DNA of 64,000 nucleotides from Massilia mucilaginosa (GTDB taxonomy: Bacteria > Pseudomonadota > Gammaproteobacteria > Burkholderiales > Burkholderiaceae_D). Of the stretch, positions 43,788-49,343 are shown piece by piece. The notes beneath the pieces are model-generated. The model was not told the origin of the DNA and did not search any database. It saw only the letters and a list, made by a program, of their open reading frames with translations. The position numbers were made by a program, and so were the translations under genes. Each line of letters begins with the position of its first letter. Within the stretch, counting starts at the first letter, position 1. Location: contig NZ_WHJH01000001.1 in the NCBI RefSeq assembly GCF_011682145.1, positions 248,001 through 312,000 on the forward strand, in the 5' to 3' direction.

Positions 43788-44279
43788 TCAGACCACCTTG
43801 TTGGTGGCCAGGTCCCATCCGCCCGAGGTATTGCCGCCGGTCCCGCCGCCGACCTTTTGCTGCGTGTACTTCCACTTCACCTTGGAATACTTCAAGCCCA
43901 GGTGCTCGGTCAGGATGTCGCCCTCGGTGACGGACGGGCTGACGGTACTGATCAAGACGTTTTCCAGTTCCATCTCAAAATACTTGACGCGTTCGCCCTG
44001 GCCGTCGGCGCGCATGAATTCCAGCTTGGCTTTCGGCAGCGTCTTGCCGGACGAGCAGTTCTGCAGCAGCAGCGGCGTGGCCAGGTCGGCCAGCTTGACG
44101 ATGAACAGCTCGCTGTGTTCGCAGCGCTCGGCGGTATGCCCGCCGCCGGTCGACGCGGTGGCCGATTTGGGCTGCGACACACCCCACGACACCGACTGGC
44201 ACTCGATCCAGTCCTTGTGCAGGTTGTCGGTCGATTCGCCCTTGATGCCGTCGATTTGCAAGTAAACGTCGATTGCCAT
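43788..44279 (-). CDS. hcp: Hcp family type VI secretion tube protein (orphan)
   Basis: The 163-residue product starts MAIDVYLQIDGIKGES, the typical Hcp N-terminus, and has H-S-E-L-F-I-V-K near 55-62, P-L-L-L-Q-N-C-S-S-G-K and V-K-Y-F-E-M-E-L-E-N-V-L-I-S. Hcp hexamers stack to form the type VI inner tube and carry effectors. No other T6SS gene (vgrG, tss) is in the window, so this is a stray copy; such copies often serve main clusters elsewhere. The last 20 residues are Gly/Thr-rich. Upstream lie two FNR-like direct repeats. Confidence 0.9.
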   Translation of the reverse strand: MAIDVYLQIDGIKGESTDNLHKDWIECQSVSWGVSQPKSATASTGGGHTAERCEHSELFIVKLADLATPLLLQNCSSGKTLPKAKLEFMRADGQGERVKYFEMELENVLISTVSPSVTEGDILTEHLGLKYSKVKWKYTQQKVGGGTGGNTSGGWDLATNKVV

Positions 44280-44358
44280 GGTGTACTCCGTGAGTAAGGA
44301 ATGGGACGCGAGATATTGAACACAAACGCCATTATTGGAGCGCCAAAGCGGGGGGCGA

Positions 44359-44429
44359 TTGCGCCTGATCAAGCTCAGCTCAGTTCGGCTGACCTGTTGC
44401 GAAATGCGGGCACGATTGCGCTGGATCAA
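44359..44429. promoter_or_regulatory. Two 14-bp direct repeats upstream of hcp
   Basis: TTGCGCCTGATCAA (44359-44372) and TTGCGCTGGATCAA (44416-44429) share 12 of 14 bases and both resemble an FNR site with one perfect half (ATCAA). They lie 80-150 bases before the hcp start and 100-170 before the plus-strand gene at 44530. Confidence 0.35.
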
Positions 44430-44529
44430 ACAACGGCGCGCGCTGGCGTGGAAGCACGACAAATATCATGAAGGTGCTGCGTGGAATTGTTTCTAATCGG
44501 AATGTATCCTCACCTTCAGGGAGTCGTCC

Positions 44530-45330
44530 GTGTCCATTTCCGCCCAGAATTCATACTCCAGCATCAAGCCCGACCTGCGCCAGCGCAACCGGCGTTCATC
44601 CGATATCGAACAGCAAGCCTACGCCGCCGTCGGGCGCAGGTTCGCCGCCGGCGGCAGCGGCAGCAGCAGTAGCAGTAGCAGTAGCAGTAGGGTCCGCTAC
44701 GTGCGCGTTGTGCTGGGCGCGGCGGCGTCCATCACGGTGGTCATGCTGGTCACGCTGGTGGCGCTGCTGAGTTACGACAACATCAATTCGCCGCATGCGC
44801 TCAAGGTTGCCGCGCCCGCCAAAGCCGAGCCGCGCGCGGCCGGCCCGGCTTTGGCGGCAAGCGCCAGGCCGGTCGTGATCATCGATGAAAAAGAGGAAGC
44901 CCCGACGCGGCCGGTGGTGGCGGCGGCGCCGGTTCCACCGCTGGTGCTATTGTCGCCGGCGGAGCTGAAGCCATCGGCGCCGCCGGCCCCGGCCAGGCTG
45001 GCGACGGCAATCAAGACGCCGCTCAAGCTGCGCGAGCACGCCAGGCCGGCCGCGGGGGCGGGCAGGCAGACCGCCTTGAAAGCGGGCAAACCGATGCGCG
45101 CGGGCGCACGCAAGGAGGCACGCGGCGAATTACGCAAAGCCGCGCCCTCCCCCGTGAAACGCAAAACGTCGCTGCTCTCCATGGCGGCCCCGGCGCGGCA
45201 GGGGGCCAACGGCGGCGCGCTGGGCACCCTGCTCTCGTACGCCAGCGTGCAGCGGCGCTACCTGGCAGCGCCGCTGCCGATGCTGGCGGCGCGCCACGCG
45301 CCGCGCCGGCGCCACCTCTCCGAGCCCTGA
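44530..45330 (+). CDS. Membrane-anchored protein with Ser tract and Ala/Pro-rich exterior
   Basis: The 266-residue product starts at GTG with AGGGAG upstream. Residues 1-55 are charged and include a 9-Ser run encoded by repeated AGCAGT hexamers; a hydrophobic helix spans about 60-82; the rest is rich in Ala, Pro, Arg and Lys, probably disordered in the periplasm. No family is recognised. It diverges from hcp and shares its intergenic region, but a T6SS role is only a guess. Confidence 0.55.
   Translation: MSISAQNSYSSIKPDLRQRNRRSSDIEQQAYAAVGRRFAAGGSGSSSSSSSSSRVRYVRVVLGAAASITVVMLVTLVALLSYDNINSPHALKVAAPAKAEPRAAGPALAASARPVVIIDEKEEAPTRPVVAAAPVPPLVLLSPAELKPSAPPAPARLATAIKTPLKLREHARPAAGAGRQTALKAGKPMRAGARKEARGELRKAAPSPVKRKTSLLSMAAPARQGANGGALGTLLSYASVQRRYLAAPLPMLAARHAPRRRHLSEP
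44660..44690 (+). repeat. In-frame AGCAGT hexamer repeat
   Basis: About four to five tandem AGCAGT units encode the poly-Ser run; length change would not shift the frame. Confidence 0.7.
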
Positions 45331-45380
45331 AAACCACGCCGAGGCGAATTTGCTGGGGTTTGCCGGCCACTGACGATATA

Positions 45381-45396
45381 CTGTATATAATTACAG
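45381..45396 (+). promoter_or_regulatory. LexA (SOS) box
   Basis: CTGTATATAATTACAG has the exact CTGT-N8-ACAG outer arms and matches the E. coli consensus CTGTATATATATACAG at 14 of 16 bases. It contains a TATAAT -10 hexamer and sits 11 bases before the fan1-like ATG, so LexA bound here would block transcription. Confidence 0.75.
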
Positions 45397-45406
45397 GGTT
45401 CGGTCG

Positions 45407-47074
45407 ATGGTCCGCAGCACGATGCGCAAAGTTCTTGAGAATGAGTTCTATTATCTGGATAATTTCCATCAGGTACTAGAATGGATTGCAGGGCGTTACA
45501 ACGACTTGCTGACCGAAGAGGAGCGGGCGTTCATCGCCACGTTCCCGTCGCTGCCGCAAGCCTCGCGCGCGCTGCTGGTGCGCATGGTCATGCGCAAGGG
45601 CACGGTTTTCCGCGCCAGCAAGCTCAATTACGCCGAAATCGGCTGCGCGGTCGAGGCCGCGCGCCATCTGCTGCCGACCGGCTGGGTCCATGCCGACCCG
45701 GTGCTCTCGCTCGACGAGGTGTTCGACCTGCTGCTCAAGGCCGAGATCGGCGCCATTTTCAGCCTGTCGCTGCACGAAAAGAGCGCGCGCAAGGGCGAGC
45801 AGCTGGCCGCCCTGCGCGAGGCCTTTGGCGACGCGCGCGCGTTTTCGGCCTGGTACCGCGACTCGCCCGACACCGCCTACAGCATCACCATCAAGGACCT
45901 GTGCGACCGCCTGCGCCTGATCTTCTTCGGCAACCTGCGCCAGGACTGGACCGAATTCGTACTGTCCGACCTGGGCTTGTTCCAGTACGAAAAAGTGGAG
46001 TTTTCGGCGTCCTCGCGCGGCTTTCGCACGCGCCGCGATGTCGACGATTACCTGGCCCTGCACCAGTGCAAGGAGCGCTTTCGCGCCGGCGAAGCGGTCG
46101 ACGAGGTGCTGGCCACCCTGCCGCGCGAGCGTTTCGAGAATGAATGGATCGACAGCCGGCGCGAACGGCTGATGTTCCAGATCGCGCAACACGTGGAAAA
46201 GCAGAAGGACTGGGACCAGGCCTTCGCGCTGTACGCCTGCTGCAATGCCCCGGGTGCGCGGGCGCGCGCCATCCGCGTGCTGGAAAAACACGAGCGCCAT
46301 GCCGAGGCGCACGCGCTGCTGGAACGGGCCCAGGCCGCGCCCGAGAGCGACGCCGAGCGCCAGCAACTGCTGCGCATCGCGCCGCGCCTGCGCCGCAAAC
46401 TCGGGCACCAGCCGCTGCCGTCGCGGCGCAATCCGGCGCTGCGCCGGCTCGACCTGATCCTGCCGATGCCGCTTGAAGCGAACTGGTGGGTCGAAGGCAT
46501 CGTGCGCGACCACCTGGCCAGCGCCGACGCGCCCGTGTTCTACGTCGAGAACGCGCTGATCAACTCGCTGTTCGGGCTGCTCTGCTGGCGCCCGGTTTTC
46601 AGCGCCATTCCCGGCGCATTTTTCCACCCCTTCCACCGTGGCCCGGCCGACCTGCACAGCGCCGATTTTTACCGCCGGCGCGAGCGCGAGTTCCGCGCCT
46701 GCCTCGACCAGCTGGACGACGGCAGCTACCAGGACACCATCCGCGCCAACTACGCCGGCAAGCGCGGCGTCCAGTCGCCGTTCGTGGCCTGGGAAGCGCT
46801 GGGCGCCGAGCTGCTGGAGATGGCGCTGGCCTGCATCCCCGCCGAGCACCTGAAAAAATGGTGCGAACGCATCCTGCTCGACATCAAGGCCAACCGCAAC
46901 GGCTTTCCCGATCTGATCCAGTTCTGGCCGGTCGAGCGGCGCTACAACATGATCGAAGTCAAAGGCCCGGGCGACCGCCTGCAGGACAACCAGCTGCGCT
47001 GGATCGAATACTGCGCCGCGCACCAGATGCCGATTTCGGTCTGCTATCTGCAGTGGGCGCAGCCGTGTTCATGA
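45407..47074 (+). CDS. FAN1-like structure-specific nuclease (VRR-NUC)
   Basis: The 555-residue product matches bacterial FAN1: an N-terminal SAP-like DNA-binding region near residues 35-75 (L-V-R-M-V-M-R-K-G-T-V-F-R), a TPR-like helical middle near 260-310, and a C-terminal VRR-NUC domain with G-F-P-D-L (Asp502) and M-I-E-V-K-G-P-G-D (Glu517, Lys519), the P-D-x15-E-x-K metal site. FAN1 enzymes cut near 5' flaps and unhook interstrand crosslinks. A LexA box precedes it and a helicase gene follows in 7 bases, indicating an SOS-regulated crosslink-repair unit. Confidence 0.88.
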   Translation: MVRSTMRKVLENEFYYLDNFHQVLEWIAGRYNDLLTEEERAFIATFPSLPQASRALLVRMVMRKGTVFRASKLNYAEIGCAVEAARHLLPTGWVHADPVLSLDEVFDLLLKAEIGAIFSLSLHEKSARKGEQLAALREAFGDARAFSAWYRDSPDTAYSITIKDLCDRLRLIFFGNLRQDWTEFVLSDLGLFQYEKVEFSASSRGFRTRRDVDDYLALHQCKERFRAGEAVDEVLATLPRERFENEWIDSRRERLMFQIAQHVEKQKDWDQAFALYACCNAPGARARAIRVLEKHERHAEAHALLERAQAAPESDAERQQLLRIAPRLRRKLGHQPLPSRRNPALRRLDLILPMPLEANWWVEGIVRDHLASADAPVFYVENALINSLFGLLCWRPVFSAIPGAFFHPFHRGPADLHSADFYRRREREFRACLDQLDDGSYQDTIRANYAGKRGVQSPFVAWEALGAELLEMALACIPAEHLKKWCERILLDIKANRNGFPDLIQFWPVERRYNMIEVKGPGDRLQDNQLRWIEYCAAHQMPISVCYLQWAQPCS

Positions 47075-47081
47075 GGGGCGC

Positions 47082-49343
47082 GTGAGCTACGTCGTCGCCG
47101 TGCGCGCCCTGTGCGAATTTTGCGCCAAGCAGGGCGACCTCGATCTGCGCTTCACGCCCTCGCCCACCGCGCAGGAAGGCATTGCCGGCCATGCCGTGGT
47201 GGCCGAGCGGCGCGGCCCCGGCTACCAGAAAGAAGTGAGCCTGTCGGGCGAGTACGGACCGCTGCTGGTGCGCGGCCGGGCCGACGGCTACGACCCGGCC
47301 CGGAACCTGATCGAGGAAATCAAGACCTTCCGCGGCGACCTGGAACGCATGCCGGCCAACCACCGCCATCTGCACTGGGCCCAGGTGCGCGTCTACGGGC
47401 ATCTGCTGTGCGCACAGCTCGGGCTAGAGCAGGTATCGCTGGCGCTGGTCTACTTCGACATCGGCAAGCAGACCGAAACGGTGCTGCGCGAGACCCGCAG
47501 CGCGTTTGATTTGCACGCCATGTTCGACGGCCTGTGCGAGCGCTTCGTGGCGTGGGCCGCGCAAGAACTGGCGCACCGCCAGGCGCGCGACGCGGCGCTG
47601 GGCGCGCTGCGTTTTCCGCATCCGGCGTTTCGCCCGGGCCAGCGCGACCTGGCCGAAACCATCTTCCGCGCCAACAGCGGCGCGCGCTGCGTGCTGGCGC
47701 AGGCGCCGACCGGCATCGGCAAGACCGTCGGCACTCTGTTCCCGGTGCTCAAAGCGGCGCCGCTGCACCGGCTGGACAAGGTGTTCTACCTGGCCGCCAA
47801 GACGCCGGGACGCAAGCTGGCGCTCGACGCGGCCGCAGCGATCAAGCGCAGCGCGCCCGGCATGCCGCTGCGCGTGCTGGAACTGGTCGCGCGGGACAAG
47901 GCCTGCGAGCATCCCGACAAGGCCTGCCACGGCGATTCGTGCCCGCTGGCGAAGGGCTTCTACGACCGCCTGCCGGCGGCGCGCAGTGCGGCGCGCGAGG
48001 TGGCGCTGCTCGACCGCGAGGGCTTGCGCGAGGTCGCGCTGGCGCACCAGGTCTGTCCGTACTACCTGGGCAGCGAAATGGCGCGCTGGAGCGACGTGGT
48101 GGTGGGCGATTACAACTACTACTTCGACATGGGCGCAATGCTGTACGGGCTGGCGCTGGCGAACCAGTGGAGGGTCAGCGTGCTGGTGGACGAGGCGCAC
48201 AATATGGTCTCGCGCGCGCGCAAGATGTATTCGGCCGACCTGGAACGCGGCGCGTTGCGGGCGGCGCGCGCGGTGGCCCCGGCGCACCTGAGAAAGGCGC
48301 TCGACAAGGTGGGCCGCAGCTGGCCGTCCAAGGATGGCGCGGCTTACGAAGTACTCGACGCGCCGCCCGAAAAACTGCTCGATGCGCTGCAGGGCGCGTC
48401 CAGCGCGATCACCGACTACCTGGCCGACAATCCGGGGCCGATGGAACCGGACCTGCAGCGCTTTTACTTCAACGCCCTGCACTTCGCGCGCCTGGCCGAG
48501 ACCTTTGCCGAGCATTCGATGGTTGATTGCACGCGCGACGGCGCGCATGCGTCCACGCTGGCGATCCGCAATATCGTGCCGGCGCCGTTCCTCAAGCCGC
48601 GCTTTGCGCTGGCCCATGCGAGCGCGCTGTTTTCGGCCACGCTCAGCCCCTGGAACTACTACAGCGACGCGCTCGGACTGCCGGACGACACGGCGTGGGT
48701 CGACATCGACTCGCCATTTGTCGCGGAGCAGTTAAGCGTGCATGTGGTGCGCGATATCTCGACGCGGTTCACGCACCGGGCCGGATCGGTGGCGCCGATT
48801 GCGGCGCTGATCGCGCGCCAGTATGCGCAGGCGCCGGGTAATTACCTGGCGTTTTTCAGCAGCTTCGATTACCTCGACCAGGTGGCCGAGCGGGTAGAGC
48901 GCGACTATCCCGATATCCCCGTGTTCCGCCAGCCGCGCCGCATGGCGGAGACGGAGCGCGATGCTTTCCTGGGGCGCTTCACGCTCGATAGCCGCGGGGT
49001 CGGGTTTGCGGTGCTGGGCGGCTCGTTCGGCGAAGGGATCGACCTGCCGGGAGCGCGCCTGATCGGGGCCTTCATCGCCACGCTCGGGCTGCCGCAAATG
49101 AACCCGGTCAATGAGCAGATCCGCCAGCGCATGCAGGCCACGTTCGGGGCGGGCTACGACTATACGTATCTGTATCCGGGGATGCAGAAGGTGGTGCAGG
49201 CGGCCGGGCGCGTGATCCGCACCGAGGGCGACCGCGGGGTGGTGTATCTGATCGACGACCGCTTTGCGCAGCCGGAGGTGCGCGAACTGCTGCCGCGCTG
49301 GTGGCATGTGGACCAGACGCGCATCAGCCAATCAGGGCCTTGA
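47082..49343 (+). CDS. XPD/DinG-type Fe-S helicase with N-terminal PD-(D/E)XK domain
   Basis: The 753-residue product begins with a nuclease-like PD-(D/E)XK domain (G-R-A-D68 and E79-I-K81), then a superfamily 2 helicase with Walker A A-P-T-G-I-G-K-T at 208-215, V-D-E-A-H near 366 and motif VI with G-R-x-I-R-T-E near 708. Four cysteines at 275, 282, 287 and 325 are placed as the 4Fe-4S cluster of the XPD/Rad3/DinG family. It starts at GTG with GAGGGG upstream, seven bases after the FAN1-like stop. The two would act together on blocked forks or crosslinks. It overlaps the LytTR gene end by 20 bases. Confidence 0.88.
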   Translation: MSYVVAVRALCEFCAKQGDLDLRFTPSPTAQEGIAGHAVVAERRGPGYQKEVSLSGEYGPLLVRGRADGYDPARNLIEEIKTFRGDLERMPANHRHLHWAQVRVYGHLLCAQLGLEQVSLALVYFDIGKQTETVLRETRSAFDLHAMFDGLCERFVAWAAQELAHRQARDAALGALRFPHPAFRPGQRDLAETIFRANSGARCVLAQAPTGIGKTVGTLFPVLKAAPLHRLDKVFYLAAKTPGRKLALDAAAAIKRSAPGMPLRVLELVARDKACEHPDKACHGDSCPLAKGFYDRLPAARSAAREVALLDREGLREVALAHQVCPYYLGSEMARWSDVVVGDYNYYFDMGAMLYGLALANQWRVSVLVDEAHNMVSRARKMYSADLERGALRAARAVAPAHLRKALDKVGRSWPSKDGAAYEVLDAPPEKLLDALQGASSAITDYLADNPGPMEPDLQRFYFNALHFARLAETFAEHSMVDCTRDGAHASTLAIRNIVPAPFLKPRFALAHASALFSATLSPWNYYSDALGLPDDTAWVDIDSPFVAEQLSVHVVRDISTRFTHRAGSVAPIAALIARQYAQAPGNYLAFFSSFDYLDQVAERVERDYPDIPVFRQPRRMAETERDAFLGRFTLDSRGVGFAVLGGSFGEGIDLPGARLIGAFIATLGLPQMNPVNEQIRQRMQATFGAGYDYTYLYPGMQKVVQAAGRVIRTEGDRGVVYLIDDRFAQPEVRELLPRWWHVDQTRISQSGP

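Follow-up and report, generated by a model that had tools for sequence, protein, structure and literature searches.

To our knowledge, bacterial FAN1 has so far been used as a model for the structure of human FAN1 and has had little physiological setting. Here we describe a locus of Massilia mucilaginosa in which a FAN1 homologue is preceded by a predicted LexA (SOS) box and followed by EndoDinG, an XPD/DinG-type iron-sulfur (Fe-S) helicase with a fused nuclease domain. The locus lies within a stretch of 64,000 nucleotides (contig NZ_WHJH01000001.1, positions 248,001 to 312,000), which we call the window. We think it probable that this is a two-gene SOS operon, and that LexA-controlled FAN1 and EndoDinG act jointly at stalled forks or lesions.

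The closest described FAN1 is PaFAN1 of Pseudomonas aeruginosa (PA1865; PDB 4r89, 5y7g). Its 5' flap cutting and cross-link unhooking are cited in PMC12796719 and PMC9635880, and the latter names its residues D507, E522 and K524. The EndoDinG subgroup was named in a 2025 review (Cheng 2025, PMC11981726), which includes Bdellovibrio DinG and refers to unpublished data for the endonuclease activity of the Bdellovibrio protein; its EndoDinG section mentions neither FAN1 nor LexA. In 2012, LexA sites had been predicted before 'Helicase c2' genes of beta-Proteobacteria, the Burkholderiaceae and Comamonadaceae being the families studied (PMC3323433). This 'Helicase c2' is probably the same helicase as EndoDinG; the section on it names no FAN1 or nuclease domain, and a search of the paper for the terms VRR, nuclease and DinG gave no hit. 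FAN1, EndoDinG and predicted LexA control of the beta-proteobacterial 'Helicase c2' are each already in print. The initial annotation of the window had considered a FAN1-helicase pair with a fused nuclease and a LexA box little studied as one repair machine. Among the open-licence papers listed by our search, none links FAN1 to LexA or describes a FAN1-EndoDinG pair (a C. difficile LexA regulon paper contained no helicase term). The fused helicase, by contrast, is covered by the review of 2025, and LexA sites before what is probably that helicase by the paper of 2012.

The features of the locus are listed below, with the evidence for each.

45379..45398, + strand: predicted LexA (SOS) box, core CTGTATATAATTACAG at 45381-45396 (pattern search, own-genome matrix, similar placement in relatives)
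45407..47074, + strand: FAN1 homologue, 555 amino acids (Pfam; PDB 4r89 alignment)
46910..46963, + strand: FAN1 active-site codons Asp502, Glu517, Lys519 (PaFAN1 alignment)
47082..49343, + strand: EndoDinG, XPD/DinG-type Fe-S helicase with N-terminal PD-(D/E)XK nuclease, 753 amino acids, GTG start (Pfam, structure match, alignment)
47082..47606, + strand: N-terminal nuclease domain of EndoDinG, residues 1-175 (invariant residues, AlphaFold2, Foldseek)
47709..48200, + strand: Walker A (TGIGKT 210-215) to DEAH box (370-373) of EndoDinG (Pfam, alignment)
47904..48056, + strand: Fe-S cluster cysteines 275, 282, 287, 325 of EndoDinG (invariant in 11 sequences)

The window FAN1 is like PaFAN1 in domain order and catalytic triad. 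Pfam finds FAN1_HTH (residues 14-94), FANC_SAP (99-149) and VRR_NUC (438-548) in one chain, each over its curated cut-off, and the match to PaFAN1 (PDB 4r89) reaches 670 bits over residues 10-550 (541 residues). Asp502, Glu517 and Lys519, which the initial annotation had picked out as the active site, align with D507, E522 and K524 of PaFAN1 at an offset of 5. The window FAN1 thus retains the PD-(D/E)XK catalytic residues, and by analogy with its family it would cut flaps and unhook cross-links. Human FAN1 matches its C-terminal part (1e-22); unlike eukaryotic FAN1, the window protein has no ubiquitin-binding domain that Pfam recognises.

Seven bases after the FAN1 stop, at GTG 47082, begins the gene that had been read from the letters as an XPD/DinG-type helicase with four cluster cysteines and a nuclease site of its own, a reading that comparison bears out. 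Its Pfam domains are DEAD_2 and Helicase_C_2, and it matches PDB 9kqh with 382 bits over residues 5-741; a fold search names this entry as Finegoldia magna DinG with single-stranded DNA and ADPNP. Among 11 diverse full-length relatives, Lys214 of Walker A, the DEAH box and the four cysteines are invariant, as are His37, Glu51, Asp68, Glu79, Lys81, Gln101 and Tyr105 in the N-terminal domain; the proposed nuclease residues Asp68, Glu79 and Lys81 are also unchanged across 32 aligned N-termini. An AlphaFold2 model of residues 1-192 has a mean predicted local distance difference test score (pLDDT) of 89.4, and Foldseek ranks 9kqh first for the N-terminal model, followed by SSO0001 (which we take to be a Cas4), RecE, EXO5 and lambda exonuclease. 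The modelled fold is thus of the Cas4/RecE/EXO5/lambda-exonuclease type. Like the EndoDinG subgroup and Finegoldia magna DinG, the window helicase combines an N-terminal PD-(D/E)XK domain (H, E, D, E, K) with a four-cysteine Fe-S domain, and by these residues and its motor domains it is assigned to that subgroup; the Fe-S cluster itself is presumed by analogy with the family. The fusion of nuclease and helicase is thus genuine, and it had been named before. FANCJ matches the window EndoDinG weakly (4e-8). In a tree of 81 rows built by a quick method from the best 80 of 583 confirmed EndoDinG loci, the closest named relatives are Massilia.

The box was first claimed as a CTGT-N8-ACAG site with 14 of 16 positions identical to the consensus. 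CTGTATATAATTACAG at 45381-45396, which does agree with CTGTATATATATACAG at 14 of 16, is the single exact occurrence of the pattern in the window and ends 10 bases before the FAN1 ATG at 45407. The bare pattern alone is weak evidence for a LexA site, because 0.59 chance occurrences are expected in 64 kb. We also scored the window with a matrix made from eight SOS-type sites of the host genome, the FAN1 site being excluded. With this matrix the FAN1 box scores 23.7 bits, the top of the window, followed by a runner-up at 8.1 bits; the best scores in 20 mononucleotide-shuffled windows average 10.9 bits and reach at most 18.0. When host sites are left out one at a time they score between 15.2 and 31.9 bits, recA at 24.1 and dinB at 23.4. 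By its letters the FAN1 box resembles the host's repair-gene sites and scores inside the range of known-type sites. A 20-mer consensus search allowing up to three mismatches gave no match in the window because the FAN1 site differs from the 20-mer at four positions. The hexamer TATAAT can be read directly inside the box (45386-45391), where a promoter scan listed no promoter, and AGGG at its 3' edge (45395-45398) may be the FAN1 ribosome site.

The 7.7 Mb draft genome of the host holds 40 exact CTGT-N8-ACAG sites (80 strand hits). We took 20 of these stretches, mostly by their AT-rich cores, and scanned with Pfam ten first genes picked by hand from lists of open reading frames (ORFs). They comprise RecA, LexA (two sites), a pol III alpha-type polymerase and a Y-family polymerase (read as dnaE2 and dinB), UvrD, two radical-SAM proteins, an integrase, an NAD kinase and one protein without a family. 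The host thus encodes both LexA and RecA, each preceded by boxes of the same form as the FAN1 box. Further strong SOS-like host sites lie at G000:C310:49016-49049 (L131, doubled) and G000:C393:6248 (L134), the ORF beside the latter having no Pfam family.

The initial annotation had left open whether the gene pair was an accident of this strain; pair and box are kept well beyond it. We surveyed 116 genomes of the family and 398 of the phylum, counting co-occurrence by hand from tables. FAN1 occurs in 49 of the 116 family genomes, and all 49 carry a strong EndoDinG match, adjacent in 48; in the sole exception (G060) FAN1 stands at a contig end. The phylum survey scored two or three candidates per genome, so that a distant EndoDinG could escape, and took EndoDinG matches at E 1e-30 or better. 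It found FAN1 in 55 genomes, 36 of them with at least 42% identity and 19 with no more than 36%, and EndoDinG in 43. All 36 genomes of the closer group carry EndoDinG, adjacent in 35; in the remaining one (G363) the two genes are on separate contigs, and both stand well inside them. Among the 19 with a divergent FAN1 none has EndoDinG, two candidates having been scored per genome. The association gives Fisher p values of 2.6e-16 (family) and 1.6e-44 (phylum), uncorrected for kinship.

In short, FAN1 of at least 42% identity goes with EndoDinG, and EndoDinG is often found without FAN1. Adjacent pairs account for 53 of the named set, the best 80 of 583 confirmed EndoDinG loci, and in the quick tree the label adjacent or not adjacent switches at least six times. 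The gap between the genes has a median of -4 bases and falls between -40 and +30 in 118 of 133 pairs, EndoDinG mostly starting so as to overlap or abut the FAN1 stop. Two cases from the named set bear on how non-adjacency is read. At L150 the EndoDinG locus and its FAN1 are both at contig ends, and this is probably a broken pair. A loss of FAN1 at L179, L180, L184 and L191, read from the tree, was ruled out when a search of the complete genomes revealed FAN1 at another place in each.

How constant is the box? The survey covers 131 paired loci whose upstream sequence extends for 120 bp or more. Named and other sets may share species, and we therefore also counted by 99 upstream-similarity groups. 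An exact box lies within 120 bp before FAN1 in 66 of the 131 loci; tolerating one mismatch raises the count to 103. For the same loci the controls give, exact and with up to one mismatch, 1 and 6 (reversed pattern), 0.32 and 6.26 (shuffles, which preserve single-base composition only) and 0 and 6 (inside the gene). By group the counts are 53/99 and 73/99, the controls not exceeding 1 and 6. Among 65 distinct exact boxes, A stands directly before the box in 82% and T directly after it in 85%, with a flank AT of 41%; these positions were not selected for and fit the LexA palindrome.

Some of the loci that lack a box within 120 bp have one farther upstream. At four loci of genus g14 (L098, L100, L101, L113) an exact LexA-type box lies 404-485 bases upstream of FAN1, and the stretch between the far box and FAN1 holds no convincing ORF shared by the four. 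Elsewhere, a 3.2 Mb replicon of Burkholderia stagnalis carries the FAN1-EndoDinG pair with an exact box upstream, and a 2.8 Mb replicon of Cupriavidus campinensis carries EndoDinG with an exact box upstream and no FAN1 hit (both from the L227/L228 set). Four EndoDinG matches came from IMG/VR viral contigs; three are strong and start at the contig edge (L222, L223, L224), and the viral origin of these three contigs is doubtful. In some FAN1-free loci (Acidovorax, Roseateles and Rhizobacter records, also L076 and L080), an ORF of about 270-320 amino acids ends at or overlaps the EndoDinG start. By eye these ORFs are alike in their N-termini (L189:3114-4001, L217:3177-3992, L168:3126-3995), and the three that were scanned gave no Pfam or NCBIfam match.

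The arrangement holds throughout genus g80, which we take as Pseudomonas since the FAN1 of one member shares 93% identity with PaFAN1 across 202 residues. In all 25 species EndoDinG adjoins FAN1 and a box with at most one mismatch is present (26 loci, one genome, G740, giving two pieces; 8 exact), and the locus nearest PaFAN1 has an exact box. Judging from this genus, PA1866 would be EndoDinG and PA1865 would carry the box. According to PMC12796719, UV-C and ciprofloxacin induce PA1865, PA1866 is differentially expressed after UV-C, and the LexA-controlled DinG of P. aeruginosa is another helicase, PA1045 (with PA1044). The analogy suggests LexA as the regulator of the UV response of PA1865-PA1866.

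Genomes in which the two genes lie apart are of particular use here. Four of them are related Pseudomonas genomes (P. tremae, P. cichorii, P. viridiflava and one further species). All four have, at about -45 from FAN1, a box that departs from the pattern at one position at most, one of these boxes being exact; EndoDinG has such a box at -104 to -134 in three, the fourth showing two mismatches. In two of these genomes (G748, G750) a single contig carries both genes, separated by about 190 and 255 kb. G363, which belongs to the window's own order, has exact boxes at both genes, at -27 and -33. Taking the five genomes together, FAN1 has a box of no more than one mismatch in 5/5 and EndoDinG in 4/5. 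Neighbourhood does not explain boxes at both separated genes, whereas a common need for LexA control, as read from these upstream sequences, can.

FAN1 also occurs in a second architecture. Five divergent FAN1s that we scanned (L090, L092, L093, L094, L229) carry a C-terminal RNase_T (DnaQ-type) exonuclease domain, and a FAN1-exonuclease protein of this kind was counted by hand in about 34 of 118 genomes of f13, a family of the same class. Of 30 f13 loci fetched (L260-L289), the 29 that include the N-terminus show an exact box in 13 and a box with at most one mismatch in 23, with reversed-pattern controls of 0 and 5. Two FAN1 architectures are therefore preceded by LexA-type boxes. At L081-L089, which hold the divergent FAN1s of f21 and others, we found neither an exact box close by nor EndoDinG alongside. 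The alpha-proteobacterial LexA motif is GTTC-N7-GTTC; allowing up to one mismatch, it was not matched at six further FAN1-exonuclease loci (L230-L233, L091, L290; f48, f51, Bradyrhizobium).

Gene identities, catalytic residues, adjacency and co-occurrence, the LexA-type box and its presence mostly at both genes when they are apart are all established by comparison, and from the sequences bacterial FAN1 looks like a member of the SOS response. XPD/DinG helicases have 5'-3' polarity, and LexA would act here as it does elsewhere in its family. LexA bound at 45381-45396 would block the promoter, and RecA-driven cleavage of LexA would release both genes on what we infer to be a single message. Where a fork has stalled or at a lesion, EndoDinG could then load on single-stranded DNA, travel 5' to 3' and open or trim a strand, so that a 5' flap or a branch of the fork becomes accessible. 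FAN1 would cut the flap near the junction and could unhook an interstrand cross-link, so that the two proteins would presumably meet on the same substrate and act jointly on cross-links.

It is tempting to go further, and we do so tentatively: FAN1 may widely be an SOS gene in beta- and gammaproteobacteria, partnered by EndoDinG or by a fused DnaQ-type exonuclease, with the EndoDinG pair forming an SOS-induced, Fanconi-like unit for cross-links and forks that works without ubiquitin, like animal FAN1 with FANCJ-type helicases, and with separated genes keeping their boxes for joint production. Eukaryotic FAN1 with FANCJ/XPD-family helicases is presumably the parallel to the window pair. If FAN1 does belong to the SOS response with a fixed helicase-nuclease partner, this would define a testable route of cross-link repair beyond UvrABC and recombination. 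It would also give EndoDinG a likely pathway, and the P. aeruginosa PA1865-PA1866 UV response, left unassigned by the 2026 paper PMC12796719, a candidate regulator.

Several observations weigh against joint action under LexA. EndoDinG is present without FAN1 in 21 of the 70 family genomes that bear it, and of the 27 non-adjacent loci among the best 80 of 583, 22 have no detected FAN1 and five have FAN1 elsewhere in the genome. Since EndoDinG so often occurs without FAN1, it must have work of its own. The box is not universal either: 28 of the 131 paired loci have none within 120 bp even when one mismatch is allowed, including Alcanivorax (L194), Chitiniphilus (L203) and two Noviherbaspirillum loci (L156, L167). 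Where EndoDinG stands alone (48 loci, including the separated five), only 8 show an exact box within 160 bp, and 14 do so when one mismatch is tolerated; the controls here are 0 and 1 for the reversed pattern and 0 and 3 inside the gene. The four separated Pseudomonas are close relatives and not four independent events, so that the five genomes with separated genes represent at most a few. Finally, according to PMC12796719 neither PA1865 nor PA1866 belongs to any of three known damage regulons, and hydrogen peroxide represses PA1865, a result that regulation by LexA leaves unexplained.

The main rival starts from the same facts: the two genes would share a switch and do separate jobs, EndoDinG in end resection, at R-loops and in replication-transcription conflicts, FAN1 on flaps and cross-links, and would stand together only for co-expression. 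EndoDinG without FAN1 is common, as this would predict, and an Enterococcus record shows EndoDinG with no FAN1 among its annotated neighbours (a search there for a Bacillus-type box found none before EndoDinG). That most genomes with separated genes have a box at each likewise calls for co-expression and not contact. The dependence is one-way, however: FAN1 of at least 42% identity was never without EndoDinG in either survey (49/49; 36/36), and the overlapping or abutting gene ends also count against separate jobs. We regard separate jobs as rather unlikely, and joint action as the better account.

A defence role was raised by the PADLOC typeIV_DinG model (CAS-IV-A associated), which matches EndoDinG with 386 bits; nuclease and DinG-type helicase would then be damage-induced and degrade incoming DNA. 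The patchiness of FAN1 within the window's family would suit such a role. FAN1 itself has no PADLOC hit, the four flanking ORFs that were scanned include no cas genes, the box matches host repair-gene sites, and the presence of the pair with its box in every g80 species is unlike the patchy distribution of defence genes. We consider an anti-phage system very improbable. That the palindrome is a chance match or another regulator's site is less credible still: the expected 0.59 occurrences in 64 kb would allow it, but its score, 15 bits above the next site, and its recurrence in relatives far above controls led us to reject it.

Pfam assigns the four ORFs flanking the pair to phasin, Hcp, no family and a LytTR regulator, with no csf or cas genes among these four. 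The Hcp-family gene, of the type VI secretion system, lies upstream on the minus strand (43788-44462). The ORF without a Pfam match (44530-45330, 266 amino acids) contains a serine run and ends 50 bases before the LexA box. At the other end, EndoDinG and the LytTR response regulator on the opposite strand overlap tail to tail by 20 bases (49324-49343).

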